Assembly (NCBI GenBank): GCA_003599025.1
Contig: QZIL01000033.1
Coordinates: forward strand, 1 to 37,420
Reading direction: 5' to 3'
Length of the DNA stretch: 37,420 nt
Source: Nitrospiraceae bacterium
GTDB taxonomy: Bacteria > Nitrospirota > Thermodesulfovibrionia > UBA6902
The notes beneath the pieces are model-generated. The model made no database searches and had not been told where the DNA came from. It saw nothing but the letters and a program-made list of their open reading frames with translations. Positions 3,673 through 13,083 of the stretch are shown here, piece by piece. The translations under genes were made by a program, and so were the position numbers. Position 1 is the stretch's first letter; each line of letters starts with the position of its first letter.

Positions 3673-5718
3673 TTAGAGGTCCCTTTTTGTTAAAAGGCAG
3701 CCATCTCCCATGTCTCTGCCATCAGAGGCAGGAACAGGCACTCTTTCGGAAACTGGCATTACAATATATTCGACAAAGGATATGCCTTCAAAGTTTTCTT
3801 TTAACCGCGCGATAAACTCATCTTTGCCTTCCATTTTTTCAGAGTAATACACCATGATCTTTGAATGGTATTCCTTAAGCTTTTTCATAAGCTTGTGCAG
3901 GCTGTCGTCCTCAACAGATATCATTTTTGTTATATCGATACCTATTGTCTTTTTTTCGGTCTTAAGGTAATTCAATATTCTCCTGTAGAGCTTTACCCAG
4001 TTGATTCCATCCATTATCCCTCGGAGTTCAAGACACATATGTTCGGTGCTAAGGTTCTTCCTGAGCTTCAATTCCAGATAATTAAAAGACATATCAGGCA
4101 GACTGCGGCCTTTAAGCGGAGAAGATAGAAACTGCAGGAGTGATTTCCGGTATGAAGTCACGTACGTCGAGGGCTGCCGGACATCACCAAGCAATTTCAA
4201 CTTGAGATTTTCCTTAAATGCAAAACCCTGCCCCAGTTTAGTAAGTGCACGCTGGGCTACAGTTTTTTCCCCGAGCAGCCTTCTGTATCTCTCCTCAATA
4301 TCCATGGCAAACATTGCTGTCTTCCTGTTCGGAAGGTATGGCTGCATGATGTCGATAGCTGAATAAAAATCCCTGGAATATTCTCTCAGTTTTTCATTTC
4401 TCTTCCTTTTCCACGTGTCCTGATATCTGAGGGTATATTCGTAGCCGGTTATGTATGTTTCACACATCCTCATTATTGAAGGCCCGAGTTCATGAAAATC
4501 TCTCTGAAATGCCTCCTTGAGAATATGCTGGGACTCTTTCTGCGTAAACTCCGGATGGTTAAACCAGATGCGGTGCTGACCGTGCCATTCCTCAAAGGGG
4601 ACATCAGTGCAGAGTTTCCCTTTTCCCATGTACTCATCGTATAACGCTGTTTTAGGAAGAGGCCCCAATTGCATGAACTGGGCAAAGTCAGGACGGAGCG
4701 TCTTCATGTAGTCAACCTCTTTCCATATATTTTCCTTTGTATGATGCTCCTGAAACAGGATACTGGAGGCCAGGACTGATACGCCATGGTTTCTAAGGTC
4801 ACTGAACAGCTTCGGCATGTCTATCCCCCTGTTCTTCTGGTAATTTTCGAGATAAGATTCGACCCCAAGCCACAGGAAGCCCACTCCGAGCTCAAAGACA
4901 TTCTCTATCCCGAAATCCATTATCGCCTCTGCAGAAGAAAAGATCCCGAAGTAATACAATTTATCATGCTTTTTCATAAGATCAAGAAGCTCCATCGCGC
5001 GCTTTTTGTTTTTGAGAAAATTTTCATCCATAACAAAAAAGTCACTGCACCCGAATTTCTTCTCCATCTTCACACAAATGTCAAACAGCTCTTTGCCTGT
5101 CTGAAAAAAAGGAATATGCTCGAACCTGAAATTATGGGTAGTGCAGCAGAAGCGGCAGCGGTTGGGACACCCTACCCCGGGCATGAGGATGCCTGATTTG
5201 CCAAGCAGAGGTATTCCCATAAAGCGTTTATTTTCAGCAGAAGGTATTATGGGATGCTTAATGGGGGCATCAACCTTCTCATCGAATAATTTCCTCAACC
5301 ACCTGACTCCCTCACCACGGGCAACATAATCACAATCGATCATTTTTTCTATATCAGGGATCTGGGTACCATGCCCGCCCAGGATTATCTTTGTACTCGG
5401 GCTGTATTTTCTTATCAGCTCAGACATCTTTCTGGCCTTCAGAAAGTTCGGGGTTATAAAAGAGATTCCGACATAATCATATCCCTTTTTGATCTCTTTG
5501 ATAAAACGGTCCAGCGTCGGAAAATCCAGGACAACGGCAGGATACTCAATATTTTCCGCCATAAGATAAAGGCCGAAGCTCCTGTGGTTATAACGAAGTG
5601 AAAAGATCCCCTGCTCTCTTGTTATCTGATTGTGATACAACTCCATGATATTCTCTTTGCGACCATACTGATCATCGACGCCATACGGCTTAAAGACCGA
5701 CGTTAACAGAAGTTTCAT
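3673..5718 (-). CDS. B12-binding domain radical SAM protein with extended C-terminal region
   Basis: 681 aa; cobalamin-binding-like N-terminus (GYDYVGISFITPNF...IILGGHGTQIPD), radical SAM motif CPNRCRFC, GVGFLWLGVES. Confidence 0.88.
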   Translation of the reverse strand: MKLLLTSVFKPYGVDDQYGRKENIMELYHNQITREQGIFSLRYNHRSFGLYLMAENIEYPAVVLDFPTLDRFIKEIKKGYDYVGISFITPNFLKARKMSELIRKYSPSTKIILGGHGTQIPDIEKMIDCDYVARGEGVRWLRKLFDEKVDAPIKHPIIPSAENKRFMGIPLLGKSGILMPGVGCPNRCRFCCTTHNFRFEHIPFFQTGKELFDICVKMEKKFGCSDFFVMDENFLKNKKRAMELLDLMKKHDKLYYFGIFSSAEAIMDFGIENVFELGVGFLWLGVESYLENYQKNRGIDMPKLFSDLRNHGVSVLASSILFQEHHTKENIWKEVDYMKTLRPDFAQFMQLGPLPKTALYDEYMGKGKLCTDVPFEEWHGQHRIWFNHPEFTQKESQHILKEAFQRDFHELGPSIMRMCETYITGYEYTLRYQDTWKRKRNEKLREYSRDFYSAIDIMQPYLPNRKTAMFAMDIEERYRRLLGEKTVAQRALTKLGQGFAFKENLKLKLLGDVRQPSTYVTSYRKSLLQFLSSPLKGRSLPDMSFNYLELKLRKNLSTEHMCLELRGIMDGINWVKLYRRILNYLKTEKKTIGIDITKMISVEDDSLHKLMKKLKEYHSKIMVYYSEKMEGKDEFIARLKENFEGISFVEYIVMPVSERVPVPASDGRDMGDGCLLTKRDL

Positions 5719-6023: not shown

Positions 6024-6121
6024 TGGCGGGAGCGTGTGGGAATCGAACCCACCCTGCTCACTTGTGGCAAGCAACACCGGATTTGAAGTCCGGGAGGCAC
6101 ACCAGAAACCTATACGCTCCC
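6024..6121 (-). tRNA. selC: tRNA-Sec (anticodon UCA), CCA encoded
   Basis: Minus strand GGGAGCGT...ACGCTCCC-G-CCA: 8-bp acceptor, 5-bp T stem GTGGG-TTCGATT-CCCAC, anticodon arm CCGGA-CTTCAAA-TCCGG, long variable arm GCTTGC-CACAA-GTGAGC; ~98 nt; lies next to selB and selA. Confidence 0.95.
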
Positions 6122-6217
6122 AATATCGTCGGACATCCTGAGTTAAACAGTGTCCATAGTACGATAATAATACTTGATTAGTAAAATATATGGCAACCGG
6201 GACTTGCAGCTGAATGC

Positions 6218-8113
6218 CTATGACTGCTTCTTCAGAAACTTCCTGACTTCCCCGACCCTGAGCGTAATCTTGTTGCTGTCCAGATATTCAAGAAACGGGA
6301 GTGCGTACTTTCTTGACGTCTTTAAAATATCGCGGAATTCTCCGACCGTCATTTCGCTCTTTACGCTGAAGAATTTCTGCAGACCTTCAATCATCTTTGT
6401 ATAACTGCTCATCGGGATGTAGAGTGAATCATTTATCCTGACAAGGCTTTTTTCAGAGGCCATGATCTTCAGCAGTTCCCCTGATTCCTGGGGTTTTATC
6501 AATATAGCCTGCGCCAGTTCGTCTTTTGAAGGTGGCTGAAATCCGGCCTCCTCCAGGATTTTCAATATCCTGTCTTTCAGGCCCTGTTTGTCCTCGCTGA
6601 GGGATATTTTGAATGACTTCAGCCGGAGCAGGTCTTTGTCAATTACTACCCTGTCCAGACCGGCGAGCATTGTCTCAAAGAGCCTCTGATCAAGCCCCCG
6701 GAATAAGGCCCTGACCGCCTCTTTCGGCATGCCCGGCTTAAGGGGATTTGCCTTGTGAAACTCCGCAAGAGATTCCATTACATTATTGATGAATTCGTTG
6801 TACCTCTCACTGTGAATGATCCTGCCTTCACACCTTACCAGTCTGCCGGTCTTTTCGAGTGCGCTCATCTGGCTCTGAAGTTCTGCAGGATCGACTTTGA
6901 TCCAGGACGCGATGTCAGCAACAGTCACTCCGTTTGTCCCGCCCTGGTGTATCTTTACCAGTATCTTTTCCTGAAGGCTGCCCTGTTCGAGGACTTCAAG
7001 GTCCTTTATTCTCTCCTCCTTTTTCCTCCTTTTCGGGGAGACATCCAGTATCTCCCCTCCCCCGATTGTCATCAGGGGGGAGAACCTCCGGACAATATAC
7101 CTGTCGCCGGTCATGACCGTAATCGGCTCTTTAAACCTTAACTGGCAGAAGGACTTTTCACCCGGCTTCAGCTCGTCTTTATCATACAAAAGGACCCTGC
7201 CAGTGAGCTCTGTAGTCCCTGTATGAAAGTGTACAAGGCTCCTCGTCTTCAGACCCTTGACAGGGGCGTTTTTGAGAACTTCGATGTCCGCGTCTATAAA
7301 AGACGTCGTCCTGAGTTTCTCGGGGATGGCCACGACATCGCCACGCTGTACGTCCTCTTTGGCCACCCCCTGCAGGTTCATCGCCACACGCTGACCGGCA
7401 TGCGCCTTCCTGATGTCCTTCCCGTGACTCTGCAGTCCCCTTACCTTCGTCTTGATCCCCCTTGGAAGTATTTCCACATTGGAGTCAATTGAAATGCTGC
7501 CTGATACCGCAGTACCTGTCACAACCGTGCCGAAACCCTTGAGGGTAAATATCCTGTCAACAGGCAGCCTGAATACTCCGCTTTCGGATTTTGGCTCTAC
7601 TTCCATAGCGAGGTCATGGATTTTTTCCTTCAAAAGATCGATATTATGTCCCGTCTTTGAAGAGACTGCGATGATCCCCGCGTCTTCCAGGAACGTACCC
7701 TTTGCAAAATTCCTGATATCATCCGTGATTAGTTCGATCCAGTCAGCGTCGACAAGGTCTGATTTGGTAATGACGATCATTCCCCTTTTGACCTTGAGAA
7801 GATTGCAGATGTCCAGATGCTCACGGCTCTGCGGCATGATGCTTTCATCAGCGGCAATGACCATAAGCACGATGTCAACGCCACCTGCGCCGGCGAGCAT
7901 GTTCTTGATAAGCCGTTCATGTCCTGGCACGTCAACGATGCCGACCTTCAGCCCGTCGGGATAGGCAAGGTCCGCAAACCCGAGGTCGATGGTGATGCCC
8001 CGTTCCTTTTCTTCCTTCAGACGGTCAGGGTCTGTGCCGGTCAGTGCCTTTACAAGCGCGCTTTTACCGTGGTCTATATGTCCTGCTGTTCCGAGAATTA
8101 CGTAACGATCCAT
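6218..8113 (-). CDS. selB: Selenocysteine-specific elongation factor SelB
   Basis: 631 aa; [49 protein letters not shown] GTPase signature, long C-terminal winged-helix region. Confidence 0.96.
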
Positions 8114-8207
8114 CTTTTAAAAACTCCAAATATCAAACAAATCCCGAGGACTCTATTTCAAATTCCGGAAACACGTCGGTTCATATTACTGGAATTGGGA
8201 ATTGATT

Positions 8208-8235
8208 GTAATTCGTAATTTGTAATTCGTAATTT
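8208..8235. repeat. Perfect 14-bp tandem duplication GTAATTCGTAATTT x2
   Basis: Direct reading of the selA-selB intergenic gap. Confidence 0.8.
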
Positions 8236-8250
8236 CTATTGTGGAATCTA

Positions 8251-9666
8251 TTATATATTATTTCCAAACGCGGCAATGACGCAGCCTGTCAATATCTTGA
8301 TCTCCCGGTCCTGAATGGTCCTTGCATCAATAAGAAGCGCATCTCCCTGTATCCTCGCAATTACCGGGGGGACACCCCTTCGAAGTCTCTCTTCAAGCCC
8401 ATTGACCGAGATACCTGAAGGCCTGACTGATACCGCATACGTGGGGAAATCCGTCTCCGGAAGAGAACCGCCTCCTGCACGGGACTGGTCACCAACTATT
8501 TTCAGTTCTGCCTGCCCGGATATGGATTTCTTTAATAAAGCATGAATCCTGGCCGCCCTTTTCCTTATCACCTCAAGCGGCTGGGTCAGCATCCTCACAG
8601 TAGGAATTTCCTGCAGCGCCTTCTCTTCATCAAGATACTGCATAAAGGTGGCCTCAAGCGCGGCAAAGGTCATTTTATCAATACGAAGCGCCCTGAGCAT
8701 GGGGTTTTTCTGTATCTTTTGAATCAGCTTTTCCTTCCCGACAATAATGCCTGCCTGCGGACCTCCAAGGAGTTTGTCCCCGCTGAATGTCACAATGTCA
8801 GCTCCCTGTTTGATGACCTCCTGGACGGTTGGTTCCCCGTGTATCCCGAACTTCTCAAGACTTATCAGGGACCCGCTGCCAAGGTCGTCTACCACAGGGA
8901 TCCTGAAGGCCTTTCCGAGCACTACAAGCCTTTCCACCGGGACTTCTTCAGTAAAGCCGATCACCTTATAATTGCTCTGATGCACCTTCATCAGCAGACC
9001 TGTATTGCCGCAGACTGCATTTTCATAGTCGGACAAATGGGTCTTGTTAGTTGTGCCGACCTCTCTCAGGATTGCACCGCTCGCCTGCATAACTTCAGGG
9101 ATCCTGAAGGAACCGCCTATTTCAACAAGTTCCCCGCGTGACACAATGACTTCCCTTCCTCTTGCGAAGGTATCAAGACAGACAAGCACTGCAGCAGCAT
9201 TATTGTTAACCACTATAGCGTCTTCCGCACCGGTCAATTCCTTGATAATGTCTTTAATATGGGAGTATCTCTTTCCTCTTTTACCTTTTGAGATCTCATA
9301 TTCCAGGTTTGAATAACCTCCTGCAATTGCAGCAACATTTGAGATCGCCTTGTCAGATAATATCGCCCTGCCGAGGTTTGTATGAATGACAACGCCTGAC
9401 GCATTTATCAGCGGCCGCAGCTTATGGGCGGAATATTTTCTGATTAAATTTTCGATTTCTCCGGCTATTGCATCCAGGGAGACATCCGGATCAAGGCCGT
9501 TCAGAATGGCCCTGCGTTTTAATTCAATGACTTCCCTGACAGCCCGCACTACTATTTTCCGATAAGAACCCTCAAGCCACTTCTGACCGTAAGGGCCTTT
9601 CAGACATTCATTTACCTGAGGCAACTTTGATAGTTTCTCCTGAATTGTCATGTGATTTTCTACCAT
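8251..9666 (-). CDS. selA: L-seryl-tRNA(Sec) selenium transferase
   Basis: 471 aa; INASGVVIHTNLGRAILS, VNNNAAAVLV, FSGDKLLGGPQAGIIVG (PLP lysine motif). Confidence 0.96.
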   Translation of the reverse strand: MVENHMTIQEKLSKLPQVNECLKGPYGQKWLEGSYRKIVVRAVREVIELKRRAILNGLDPDVSLDAIAGEIENLIRKYSAHKLRPLINASGVVIHTNLGRAILSDKAISNVAAIAGGYSNLEYEISKGKRGKRYSHIKDIIKELTGAEDAIVVNNNAAAVLVCLDTFARGREVIVSRGELVEIGGSFRIPEVMQASGAILREVGTTNKTHLSDYENAVCGNTGLLMKVHQSNYKVIGFTEEVPVERLVVLGKAFRIPVVDDLGSGSLISLEKFGIHGEPTVQEVIKQGADIVTFSGDKLLGGPQAGIIVGKEKLIQKIQKNPMLRALRIDKMTFAALEATFMQYLDEEKALQEIPTVRMLTQPLEVIRKRAARIHALLKKSISGQAELKIVGDQSRAGGGSLPETDFPTYAVSVRPSGISVNGLEERLRRGVPPVIARIQGDALLIDARTIQDREIKILTGCVIAAFGNNI

Positions 9667-9834: not shown

Positions 9835-11559
9835 TTACAGCTGCCAGAAATATGTGATCACCCCTACCAGTATAAAATTACTGTCTATGACCGCCTCAAA
9901 CAATGTGCTCACCTGCATCCTGCGCTTCTGAAAAATATAAAAGCACGTTACCACAAATACAGGTGACAGGACAAGATAGTAGCCCAGTCCCGGAACAAGA
10001 CCGAAAAACGCGGACAGAAACATAAACAGGCTTATCATAACAGCGAGTATGAGCAGCATTATCTGAGTCTGTTTCGGCCCTATGATTATGGGGATGGTTT
10101 CCCTGCCGACAATCCTGTCCCCTTCAATGCTTAAAATATCAAACACCACTGATCTTATAAAAACGGATATAAGCACAAATGCCAGCATCGAAATGGACAT
10201 ATAAGAAAAAAACACACCTTTGTTCAACATAGGGATAAGGACTATCACCCATGCCCATGCCATTGATACAAGGAAGTCCTTGGAACCAGGGAGGTCTTTA
10301 AGTCTCTTGTATTTAATGAAGGGCTGAAGTCTTTCAGGGACTATACGTATCGTATATATTATTCCGAGCAGGTAAGAAAACAGGAGCAGTATAAAATCGG
10401 TCAATCCGAGCAGATACGATAAATATAGTGCAGCAAGTGACGCCCCTGTTGCCCCGATAATCAGGGCCTTTCCGTAGTCCCTGAAAAACCTTGTCCTCGC
10501 AGGGTCTGAAAATTCGTCCTTCAATCGTTCGTTATATCTGTTAAATGTATGCACCGCAAATACATAAAAGAAGGCTATGAACATCATGGTAGCAGAAGGC
10601 TTCAGTCCCTGAAACACCAGACTGGAATAACACATACTGACAGCGCCGAGGCTCAGGTATAAAGTGCTTTCCACCATGAATTCGCCGATACCTTCCCAAT
10701 ACCGGTATATCCTGCCCTTTCTCTTTTTCAGGAGAAACTTTATTCTGTCAAGTACCTTGTTAATGACCCAGTTGGGGGTAGAGGCCCCGGCCATTACACC
10801 TATATTTTCATATTTGTCCAGACCGAGCCAGTCAAGTTCATCTTCGCTCTCTATATGGAATGATGGTACGCCGGTAGAAAGTGATATCTCATAAAGCCTC
10901 CTCGTATTCGCACTGTCTCTGCCCCCTACAATCACCATGGCATCGACTTCACCGGCCAGTTCAAAGACTTCCTTCTGCCTCAGGCTGGTCGAATCGCAGA
11001 TTGTGTCAAATACCTTCACCTCAGATACTTTGTTCTTTATAGACTCAACTATTTCCTGGAATACCCTTCTGTCCTGTGTTGTCTGTGCGATTACACAGGC
11101 CCTCTCCATCTCAGGCAGGTCATCAAGATCTTTAATATTTTCAACAACAATACCTTTGCCGTCAGCATACCCCAGCAGTCCGTTCACTTCCGCATGTCCC
11201 CTGTCTCCTACAATGATTGCCCTGTATCCTTCCTTAATTTCCTTCTTTAATATTGCATGGGCCCTTGCAACATGAGGACAGGTCGCATCACATATGACAT
11301 TCCCGGCGTCTTTTATTCTATTCCGCTCTTCAGGGGCGACTCCGTGGGCCCTCAGGATAACTGTTGCGTTGGAAACCGGATTCTCTCCAAGGACCTCGAC
11401 CCCCTTTTGCCTGAGCATTTCCACGGCCTGGGGATTGTGTACAAGAGGGCCGTAGGTATATAACTTACCCTTTTCCCTGTTTGCAGCATCAAGGACAATG
11501 TTCATGGCCCGCCGTACTCCCATGCAGAAACCAGCAGTCTTGGCAAGCTTGACCTTCAA
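9835..11559 (-). CDS. ispH: IspH (HMBPP reductase) fused to a C-terminal UbiA-family prenyltransferase-like membrane domain
   Basis: 574 aa; IspH: KTAGFCMGVRRAMNIVLDA, GPLVHNPQAVEMLRQKGV, CDATCPHV, GGRDSANTRRL, GASTPNWVI; then ~290 aa multi-TM region with DILSIEGDRIVGRETIPIIIG (UbiA second motif). TTG start abuts the deoC stop. Confidence 0.9.
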   Translation of the reverse strand: MKVKLAKTAGFCMGVRRAMNIVLDAANREKGKLYTYGPLVHNPQAVEMLRQKGVEVLGENPVSNATVILRAHGVAPEERNRIKDAGNVICDATCPHVARAHAILKKEIKEGYRAIIVGDRGHAEVNGLLGYADGKGIVVENIKDLDDLPEMERACVIAQTTQDRRVFQEIVESIKNKVSEVKVFDTICDSTSLRQKEVFELAGEVDAMVIVGGRDSANTRRLYEISLSTGVPSFHIESEDELDWLGLDKYENIGVMAGASTPNWVINKVLDRIKFLLKKRKGRIYRYWEGIGEFMVESTLYLSLGAVSMCYSSLVFQGLKPSATMMFIAFFYVFAVHTFNRYNERLKDEFSDPARTRFFRDYGKALIIGATGASLAALYLSYLLGLTDFILLLFSYLLGIIYTIRIVPERLQPFIKYKRLKDLPGSKDFLVSMAWAWVIVLIPMLNKGVFFSYMSISMLAFVLISVFIRSVVFDILSIEGDRIVGRETIPIIIGPKQTQIMLLILAVMISLFMFLSAFFGLVPGLGYYLVLSPVFVVTCFYIFQKRRMQVSTLFEAVIDSNFILVGVITYFWQL

Positions 11560-12219
11560 CTAATATTCCCCCGGTGCCTCTTTCATGATCGCCGCTCCCG
11601 AGCTCGTCCCGATCCGCGTAGCGCCTGCCTCAATCAATGCCTTTGCCTGTGCAAAGGTCTTTATCCCGCCTGCGGCCTTAATCCCCGGTTTTCCTTTTGT
11701 TAAGGTCTTTATCAGCTGAACATCCCTGATGACTGCACCGGAAGGGCCAAAACCAGTGGAGGTTTTTATATAATCAGCCCCTGCCTCGATCACTGCTTTA
11801 CAGGCCTTTTTCTTTTCATCATCCGTCAGGTAACATGTTTCTATTATTATTTTATGCACCGCTTCAGGGGTGGCTGTCACAATATCTGATATTTCTTTTT
11901 TCACGGCATCCCACTCCCCTGACTTTGCCAGCCCTGTATTTATCACTACATCAAGCTCATCAGCCCCGTTAAGGACCGTCTGCATCGCTTCGTATATTTT
12001 AACTGCGGACAATGTCATCCCAAGGGGGAACCCTATGACCGCTGCAACTTTCACATGGGACTTAAACAGGGCCTCTTTGGCGATAGCAGAAAAATATGGA
12101 TGCACACACACGGCAAAAAAGCCGTATCTTACTGCTTCATCACATAACTGCAGGACATCCGCTCTTGTTGCATCAGGCCTGAGAAGAGTGTGGTCTATCA
12201 ATTTTGCTATGCTTGTCAT
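11560..12219 (-). CDS. deoC: Deoxyribose-phosphate aldolase
   Basis: 219 aa; IDHTLLRPDATRADV, VAAVIGFPLGM, DELDVVINTG, YIKTSTGFGPSGA, KAAGGIKTFAQA. Confidence 0.95.
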   Translation of the reverse strand: MTSIAKLIDHTLLRPDATRADVLQLCDEAVRYGFFAVCVHPYFSAIAKEALFKSHVKVAAVIGFPLGMTLSAVKIYEAMQTVLNGADELDVVINTGLAKSGEWDAVKKEISDIVTATPEAVHKIIIETCYLTDDEKKKACKAVIEAGADYIKTSTGFGPSGAVIRDVQLIKTLTKGKPGIKAAGGIKTFAQAKALIEAGATRIGTSSGAAIMKEAPGEY

Positions 12220-13083
12220 CTATCTCTCCCTTTCTGTATGTTCAGCGACCTTTTTCCTGTATGCCTTATGGAGCAGCCTGGTATGGCTGCCGGGTCCAGG
12301 ATATTTCCTCACATTAATAATCTCAGCCACAGGCATGACTTCCATAGTCGTGTTTGAAATAAAGACTTCCTGCGCATTACGAATATCTTCCGGTCTGAAT
12401 CTGCCTTCACAGGTTTCTATATGCAATTCATGCGCAGCCTCGAGAATTATCCTCCTTGTGATCCCGTCCAGTATCCCGACTTTCAGGGAGGGAGTACACA
12501 GAACATTGTTCTTTATAAAAAATATATTCGTGATCGTACCTTCAGCAATATACCCTCTGTAATTCAGCATGACAGCTTCATACGCGCCTTTTCTCTTTGC
12601 CTCGATTTTGGCAAGTATATTGTTAAGAAAGTTAAGTGATTTTATTCGGGGATCAAGCGCCCTGCTGTAATTGCGCCGGATATCAGCAATAGCGACTTTG
12701 ACTCCCTTATGATAATACTGCACCGGATATTTCCTGAAAGGAGTGACAAATATTACAAATGTCGCTTCGGGACACAGGACAGGGTCCAGCCCTACAGGCC
12801 CCGCGCCCCTTGATACCGTTATCCTGATTACAGCCTCTTTCACCCTGTTCGCCTTCATGGTCTTATAAACAGCCTTTTTAACCGCATCCTGAGACTTTGG
12901 TATTACAAGTTCAATTAAGGATGCCGACCGGAAGAGCCTTTTCACATGTTCGTCAAGCATATAGACCACACCATTATACGCCCTCAAGGTTTCATATATC
13001 CCGTCACCGTAGAGAAACCCGTGGTCAAAAACAGAGATCACAGCTCTTTCTTTGGGCACAACTTTATTATTCAGATAAATCAT
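12220..13083 (-). CDS. Class IV PLP aminotransferase (branched-chain aminotransferase / aminodeoxychorismate lyase family)
   Basis: 287 aa; VFDHGFLYGDGIYETLRAYNG, SLNFLNNILAKIEAKRKGAYEAVMLNYRGYIAEGTITNIFFI, GITRRIILE. Confidence 0.9.
   Translation of the reverse strand: MIYLNNKVVPKERAVISVFDHGFLYGDGIYETLRAYNGVVYMLDEHVKRLFRSASLIELVIPKSQDAVKKAVYKTMKANRVKEAVIRITVSRGAGPVGLDPVLCPEATFVIFVTPFRKYPVQYYHKGVKVAIADIRRNYSRALDPRIKSLNFLNNILAKIEAKRKGAYEAVMLNYRGYIAEGTITNIFFIKNNVLCTPSLKVGILDGITRRIILEAAHELHIETCEGRFRPEDIRNAQEVFISNTTMEVMPVAEIINVRKYPGPGSHTRLLHKAYRKKVAEHTERER

Follow-up and report, generated by a model that had tools for sequence, protein, structure and literature searches.

An IspH-UbiA fusion protein conserved in a family of Nitrospirota, with probable replacement of the stand-alone ispH in some genomes

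The fusion gene, its neighbors and its distribution

The window, the whole stretch of DNA that was analysed (37,420 nucleotides), carries on its minus strand an open reading frame at 11559-9835 that encodes 574 aa, begins with TTG and runs unbroken without an internal stop; the plus-strand reading of 9835-11559 contains many stops. The original prediction, which had joined IspH to UbiA in one ORF at 9835-11559, was right in its coordinates, and both Pfam domains were found in the one frame. LYTB/IspH (PF02401) covered residues 3-274 (10738-11553; E = 9.9e-92), and UbiA (PF01040) covered residues 306-547 (9919-10644; E = 3.7e-15, 56.3 bits against a curated cut-off of 34.2), with further C-terminal helices to residue 574. 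The gap between the two domains is a basic linker of residues 275-305 (KFLLKKRKGRIYR...; 10645-10737). Scanning the two halves separately, as had been proposed, recovered the same two domains.

The TTG start abuts the stop codon (TAG) of a deoC-like aldolase gene directly upstream (11560-12219, minus strand; Pfam DeoC, 3.8e-17), and a class IV aminotransferase gene (12220-13083, minus strand; Aminotran_4, 3.4e-63) is the first of this conserved trio. The order aminotransferase-deoC-fusion is kept at loci L073, L074, L077 and L079 (genome G211) but not at L076 (genome G142), where the fusion lies beside rpsB-tsf-pyrH-frr and a ketoacyl synthase gene. A FabF-like ketoacyl-synthase gene is convergent to the fusion at both L076 (8932-10158) and L077 (5470-6720), the surroundings being otherwise different. 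Downstream of the fusion in the window is a selenocysteine cluster on the minus strand (6024-9666) with selA (8251-9666), selB (6218-8113) and tRNA-Sec (6024-6121), adjoined by the gene for a 681-aa B12-binding radical SAM protein (3673-5718, minus strand).

We searched 296 genomes of the phylum for the same architecture and found the full-length fusion in 4 (G000, G211, G142 and G252), all from the window's own family; the remaining phylum members among the matches listed had the IspH domain only. When named genome contigs were scanned, loci L072-L079 joined the set, labeled as Nitrospirae, Thermodesulfovibrionia, Thermodesulfovibrio sp., UBA6902 and one 'Deferribacteres' MAG. Since L076 is the contig of G142 and L079 that of G211, each was counted once, which gives ten distinct fusion genomes with the window's included. 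In the nine others, all independently assembled, the fusion occupies a single frame with no internal stops (L078 is cut by a contig end), and the UbiA domain is 60-88% identical to that of the window. The fusion is therefore a real conserved protein and not the product of chance, a frameshift or an assembly join. None of the plasmid records covered 80% of the fusion query, and no fusion was found in the viral contigs searched. Genome G296 has two contigs (L102 and L106) that each match ispH-ubiA and are 94.6% identical over 1970 nt, which would reflect either recent gene duplication or an assembly that combines strains.

The UbiA half and its acceptor

The UbiA match above the Pfam cut-off, together with approximately nine helices, places the C-terminal half in the UbiA superfamily. 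Its first motif spans residues 340-355 (N-R-Y-N-E-R-L-K-D-E-F-S-D-P-A-R; 10495-10542), a Y-x3-K pattern lies within residues 416-428 (KYKRLKDLPGSKD; Y417 and K421; 10276-10314), and the second motif, which the original prediction gave exactly, spans residues 474-490 (DILSIEGDRIVGRETIP; 10090-10140). Seven positions are invariant across the fusions (N340, E344, D348, Y417, D474, S477 and D481), and the patterns N-x3-E-x3-D, Y-x3-K and D-x2-S-I-E-x-D are kept. When aligned with canonical UbiA proteins, Y417 was invariant and K421 nearly so. The classical DXXXD positions read E344-x3-D348 and S477-x3-D481, and a literal DXXXD occurs at D348-D352. The strict forms NDxxDxxxD and DxxxD are thus replaced by NRYNERLKD and SIEGD, departures that are also seen in other superfamily members, so that membership does not depend on the strict forms.

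The first motif had been called degenerate, a description that holds in part. NR in place of ND is normal, being found also in the MqnP-like UbiA of the same genomes (NRI[IL]DRK[FI]D). The one unusual change is from Asp to Glu at position 5; Glu at this position also occurs in the cyoE-like UbiA proteins L061 and L063 (NQYQERRTD) from the same family of genomes. These two proteins score under the heme O synthase cut-off. In AfUbiA, Mg is held by N68 and D72 in the first motif and by D198 and D202 in the second, all of them required for binding or activity; mutation of D72, a Mg ligand, abolishes GPP binding (PMC4106721). Compared to AfUbiA, the fusion has Glu at the equivalent of D72, Ser at the first Asp of the second DXXXD, and an extra Asp, D474.

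A fold search with a model of the UbiA domain returned UbiA structures first, at a probability of 1.00: 4od5 (TM 0.59/0.64), the DGGGP synthase structures 6m31/7bpu, and 4tq4. The fold check that had been proposed thus gave UbiA structures as the best matches, but the model had a low pLDDT of about 63 and canonical UbiA proteins were in its input alignment, so that this support for the fold is not independent. In the full-length model, the UbiA half was of low confidence and gave weak UbiA matches. Sequence searches of the PDB with the UbiA domain, as a single sequence or as a profile, returned no match.

The dN/dS of the UbiA half was about 0.05-0.08, the same as that of IspH. Taken together, these data indicate that the UbiA half is probably an active prenyltransferase and is not clearly degenerate. 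Alternatively, IspH could be active while the UbiA domain, catalytically dead, anchors the protein in the membrane or acts as a scaffold that binds lipids, akin to the repurposed anchor of the original prediction. Two substitutions, Glu for Asp in the first motif and Ser for Asp in the second, would agree with a dead domain, as would its low sequence similarity to any characterised UbiA. However, the second-motif Ser is also present in chlorophyll synthase, and because the active-site pattern (N-x3-E-x3-D, Y-x3-K, D-x2-S-x-E-x-D) does not vary among the fusions and the domain is under the same degree of constraint as IspH, we consider a dead anchor unlikely and less plausible than an active prenyltransferase.

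What such a prenyltransferase would act on was approached through the other UbiA proteins of these genomes. The fusion-bearing genomes tested encode a separate MqnP-like UbiA with a strong match to MqnP-type and ubiA_other models. When the fusion UbiA domain was compared with family models, no MqnP or UbiA/MenA model was among its matches, which were weak and to archaeal-type prenyltransferase, DGGGP synthase and chlorophyll synthase models. Because a separate MqnP-type UbiA is present and the fusion matches other families weakly, the acceptor is probably not a respiratory quinone precursor.

Other candidate clues were set aside. Operon context was considered as a pointer to the acceptor, but although the trio is kept in several genomes, the surroundings of G142/L076 differ. 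The sulfur-metabolism marker dsrA was rejected as a correlate of the fusion, as it is present in genomes with and without it; 15 of the 17 genomes had it, the window's own 70%-complete genome showed none, and it marks reduction and oxidation alike. Electron delivery from quinol to IspH by way of the UbiA domain was also rejected, since menaquinol is far too oxidising to feed IspH. A polyprenyl synthetase is encoded approximately 4 kb from the fusion in L077, a proximity that may be due to chance. IspH makes C5 units only. One could imagine that the paired sites pass IspH-made DMAPP straight to UbiA for dimethylallylation of a small acceptor, making the protein a dedicated C5-prenylating enzyme. 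We regard this as improbable; if true, such a pairing would contrast with a tethered IspH that merely sits beside a polyprenyl transferase.

The IspH half and the stand-alone ispH

The original prediction had recognized IspH signatures in the first ~280 aa, and both the Pfam match and the mapping of active-site residues to E. coli IspH (from a PDB alignment) bear this out. The Fe-S cysteines C12, C94 and C188 are kept, as are H41, H72, H122, E124, T160/T161, S216, N218 and S260; the conserved E. coli positions are C12, H41, H74, C96, H124, E126, T167, T168, C197, S225, N227 and S269. The three Fe-S cysteines and the HMBPP-binding residues that define IspH are thus present, and the sole change among the E. 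coli catalytic residues checked was S226 to Ala. The nearest solved IspH by sequence was 3dnf (E = 9.6e-73), which the IspH half of the full-length structure model also matched (TM 0.80 on the target). The IspH domains of the fusions formed one clade (support 1.0) on a stem of 1.09 substitutions per site, apart from the stand-alone copies of the family. This clade and its long stem argue for acquisition or a very old divergence and not for a recent duplication.

Whether a stand-alone ispH also exists had been posed as a check. The window's genome has one, of 279 aa, in the order plsC-ispH-rpsA, and its genus likewise carries a separate ispH in that position. Both the fusion and a stand-alone ispH were present in G000, G211, G296, G297, G298 and G301, with three IspH matches in G296. 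The fusion was the sole IspH found in G142, G252, G299 and G302; because these genomes are drafts, the lack of a second ispH is strong evidence only for G142 and G252, in which the slot was seen to be empty. In these two, plsC and rpsA lie about 110-160 bp apart with no ispH between them, whereas relatives hold ispH there. Just upstream of rpsA, G142 (L082) retains 38 nt that match the window's genome at 97% identity; they cover the 3' end of ispH (its final six sense codons and the stop) and the rpsA leader with its ribosome-binding site. This stretch resembles a scar left by a deletion in which the rpsA ribosome-binding site was spared, although selection on that site alone could have kept it.

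IspG, which catalyzes the step before IspH, was found once per genome in four genomes tested, G142 and G252 among them; therefore, these cells are expected to produce HMBPP and to require an IspH. Because the plsC-rpsA slot is empty and ispG is present, the fused IspH is almost surely the working enzyme in G142 and G252. As read from the genomes, these data strongly suggest that in some Nitrospirota the fusion replaced the ordinary ispH and that its IspH half works. The fusion tree does not join G252 and the G142 group as sisters, and both copies persist in G301, which is placed near the latter; ispH was therefore probably lost twice, though support in the rpsA tree is low on this point (0.38).

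The fused IspH could instead be a specialised paralogue that catalyzes a reaction other than HMBPP reduction. The co-occurrence of fusion and stand-alone ispH in the window's genome and in the relatives named above as holding both, and the identity of 40% between the window genome's two IspH copies, would fit such a role. However, the fusion almost surely supplies IspH in G142 and G252, where ispG remains and the stand-alone slot is empty, and its active site is conserved, so that a paralogue of this kind is very unlikely. Least tenable is the reading of the ORF as an artefact, whether of a frameshift, of misassembly or of two genes overlapping by chance: the window's genome was assembled as a draft of 120 contigs and 70% completeness, and a frameshift, an assembly join or homologs always encoded as two genes had been raised as grounds for doubt, but the identical single-ORF layout in nine other genomes already refutes it.

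Proposed role and comparison with known systems

We propose a bifunctional isoprenoid enzyme that is bound to the membrane, and we assign a probability of roughly 0.7 to this explanation as a whole, including its entry into the family and the displacement of ispH. The N-terminal half would be a working IspH, the enzyme that ends the bacterial pathway to isoprenoid precursors by reducing HMBPP to IPP and DMAPP. The C-terminal UbiA-superfamily half would keep IspH on the cytoplasmic side of the membrane and would very probably prenylate an acceptor that is not the respiratory quinone. The fused gene may have entered one Nitrospirota family (Thermodesulfovibrionia, UBA6902-like) from outside or by old divergence, and would then have displaced the resident ispH in some lineages. 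The data show the architecture, the conserved catalytic residues, the selection on both halves and, in genomes whose single IspH copy is the fusion, the loss of ispH. A membrane-tethered isoprenoid enzyme was among the first suggestions made for this ORF; its architecture and tethering are supported here, and the loss of the stand-alone ispH lends indirect support to IspH activity.

The fusion type has been described before. Rao et al. named and described 47 IspH-UbiA fusions in 2015, from sulfate reducers that were mainly Desulfobacterales, proposed membrane tethering with a high local concentration of IPP/DMAPP, and noted a separate UbiA/MenA in the hosts (PMC4746011). Their attempt to express a full-length IspH-UbiA failed and is the sole published attempt (PMC4746011); the one other paper in our literature search that mentions the fusion does so by citing theirs. 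The statement in the original prediction that no IspH-UbiA enzyme has been characterised therefore still holds biochemically, whereas the fusion itself was already published and named. This analysis adds members from Nitrospirota, the replacement of their stand-alone ispH in some genomes and a revised reading of the UbiA motifs. The Nitrospirota genomes offer a natural replacement test, in that a fused IspH that is the only copy should be functional, and this focuses the question on what the UbiA half prenylates. Their proteins, especially those of G142/L076 and L077, are also good candidates for expression in place of the published versions, with which it failed.

Like the fusions of Rao et al., the window's protein has an N-terminal IspH and a C-terminal UbiA in one chain, and its hosts, which are probably anaerobic sulfur-cycling bacteria, encode a separate quinone UbiA. 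It differs from them in its host phylum, Nitrospirota as opposed to mainly Desulfobacterales; apparently in reading E-x3-D and S-x3-D at the classical positions where two DXXXD repeats were described; and in having replaced the stand-alone ispH in some genomes. The architecture suggests common descent of the Nitrospirota and Desulfobacterales fusions, the published set having been compared by its description. IspH-RPS1 fusions (Rao et al. 2015; NCBIfam NF000907) likewise carry a partner at the C-terminus of IspH, and the resident stand-alone ispH adjoins rpsA in the same Nitrospirota genomes; however, the partner here is UbiA and not S1 repeats, and the NF000907 score was 316.5 against a cut-off of 624. 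The second motif, D-x2-S-x-E-G-D, is shared with chlorophyll synthase, as in PDB 9sau/9sas, the evidence being its match to the solved chain. The weak family-model matches and the presence of DGGGP synthase among the fold matches recall the archaeal enzyme. Unlike chlorophyll synthase and DGGGP synthase, the fusion UbiA scores far below the curated cut-off of every family.
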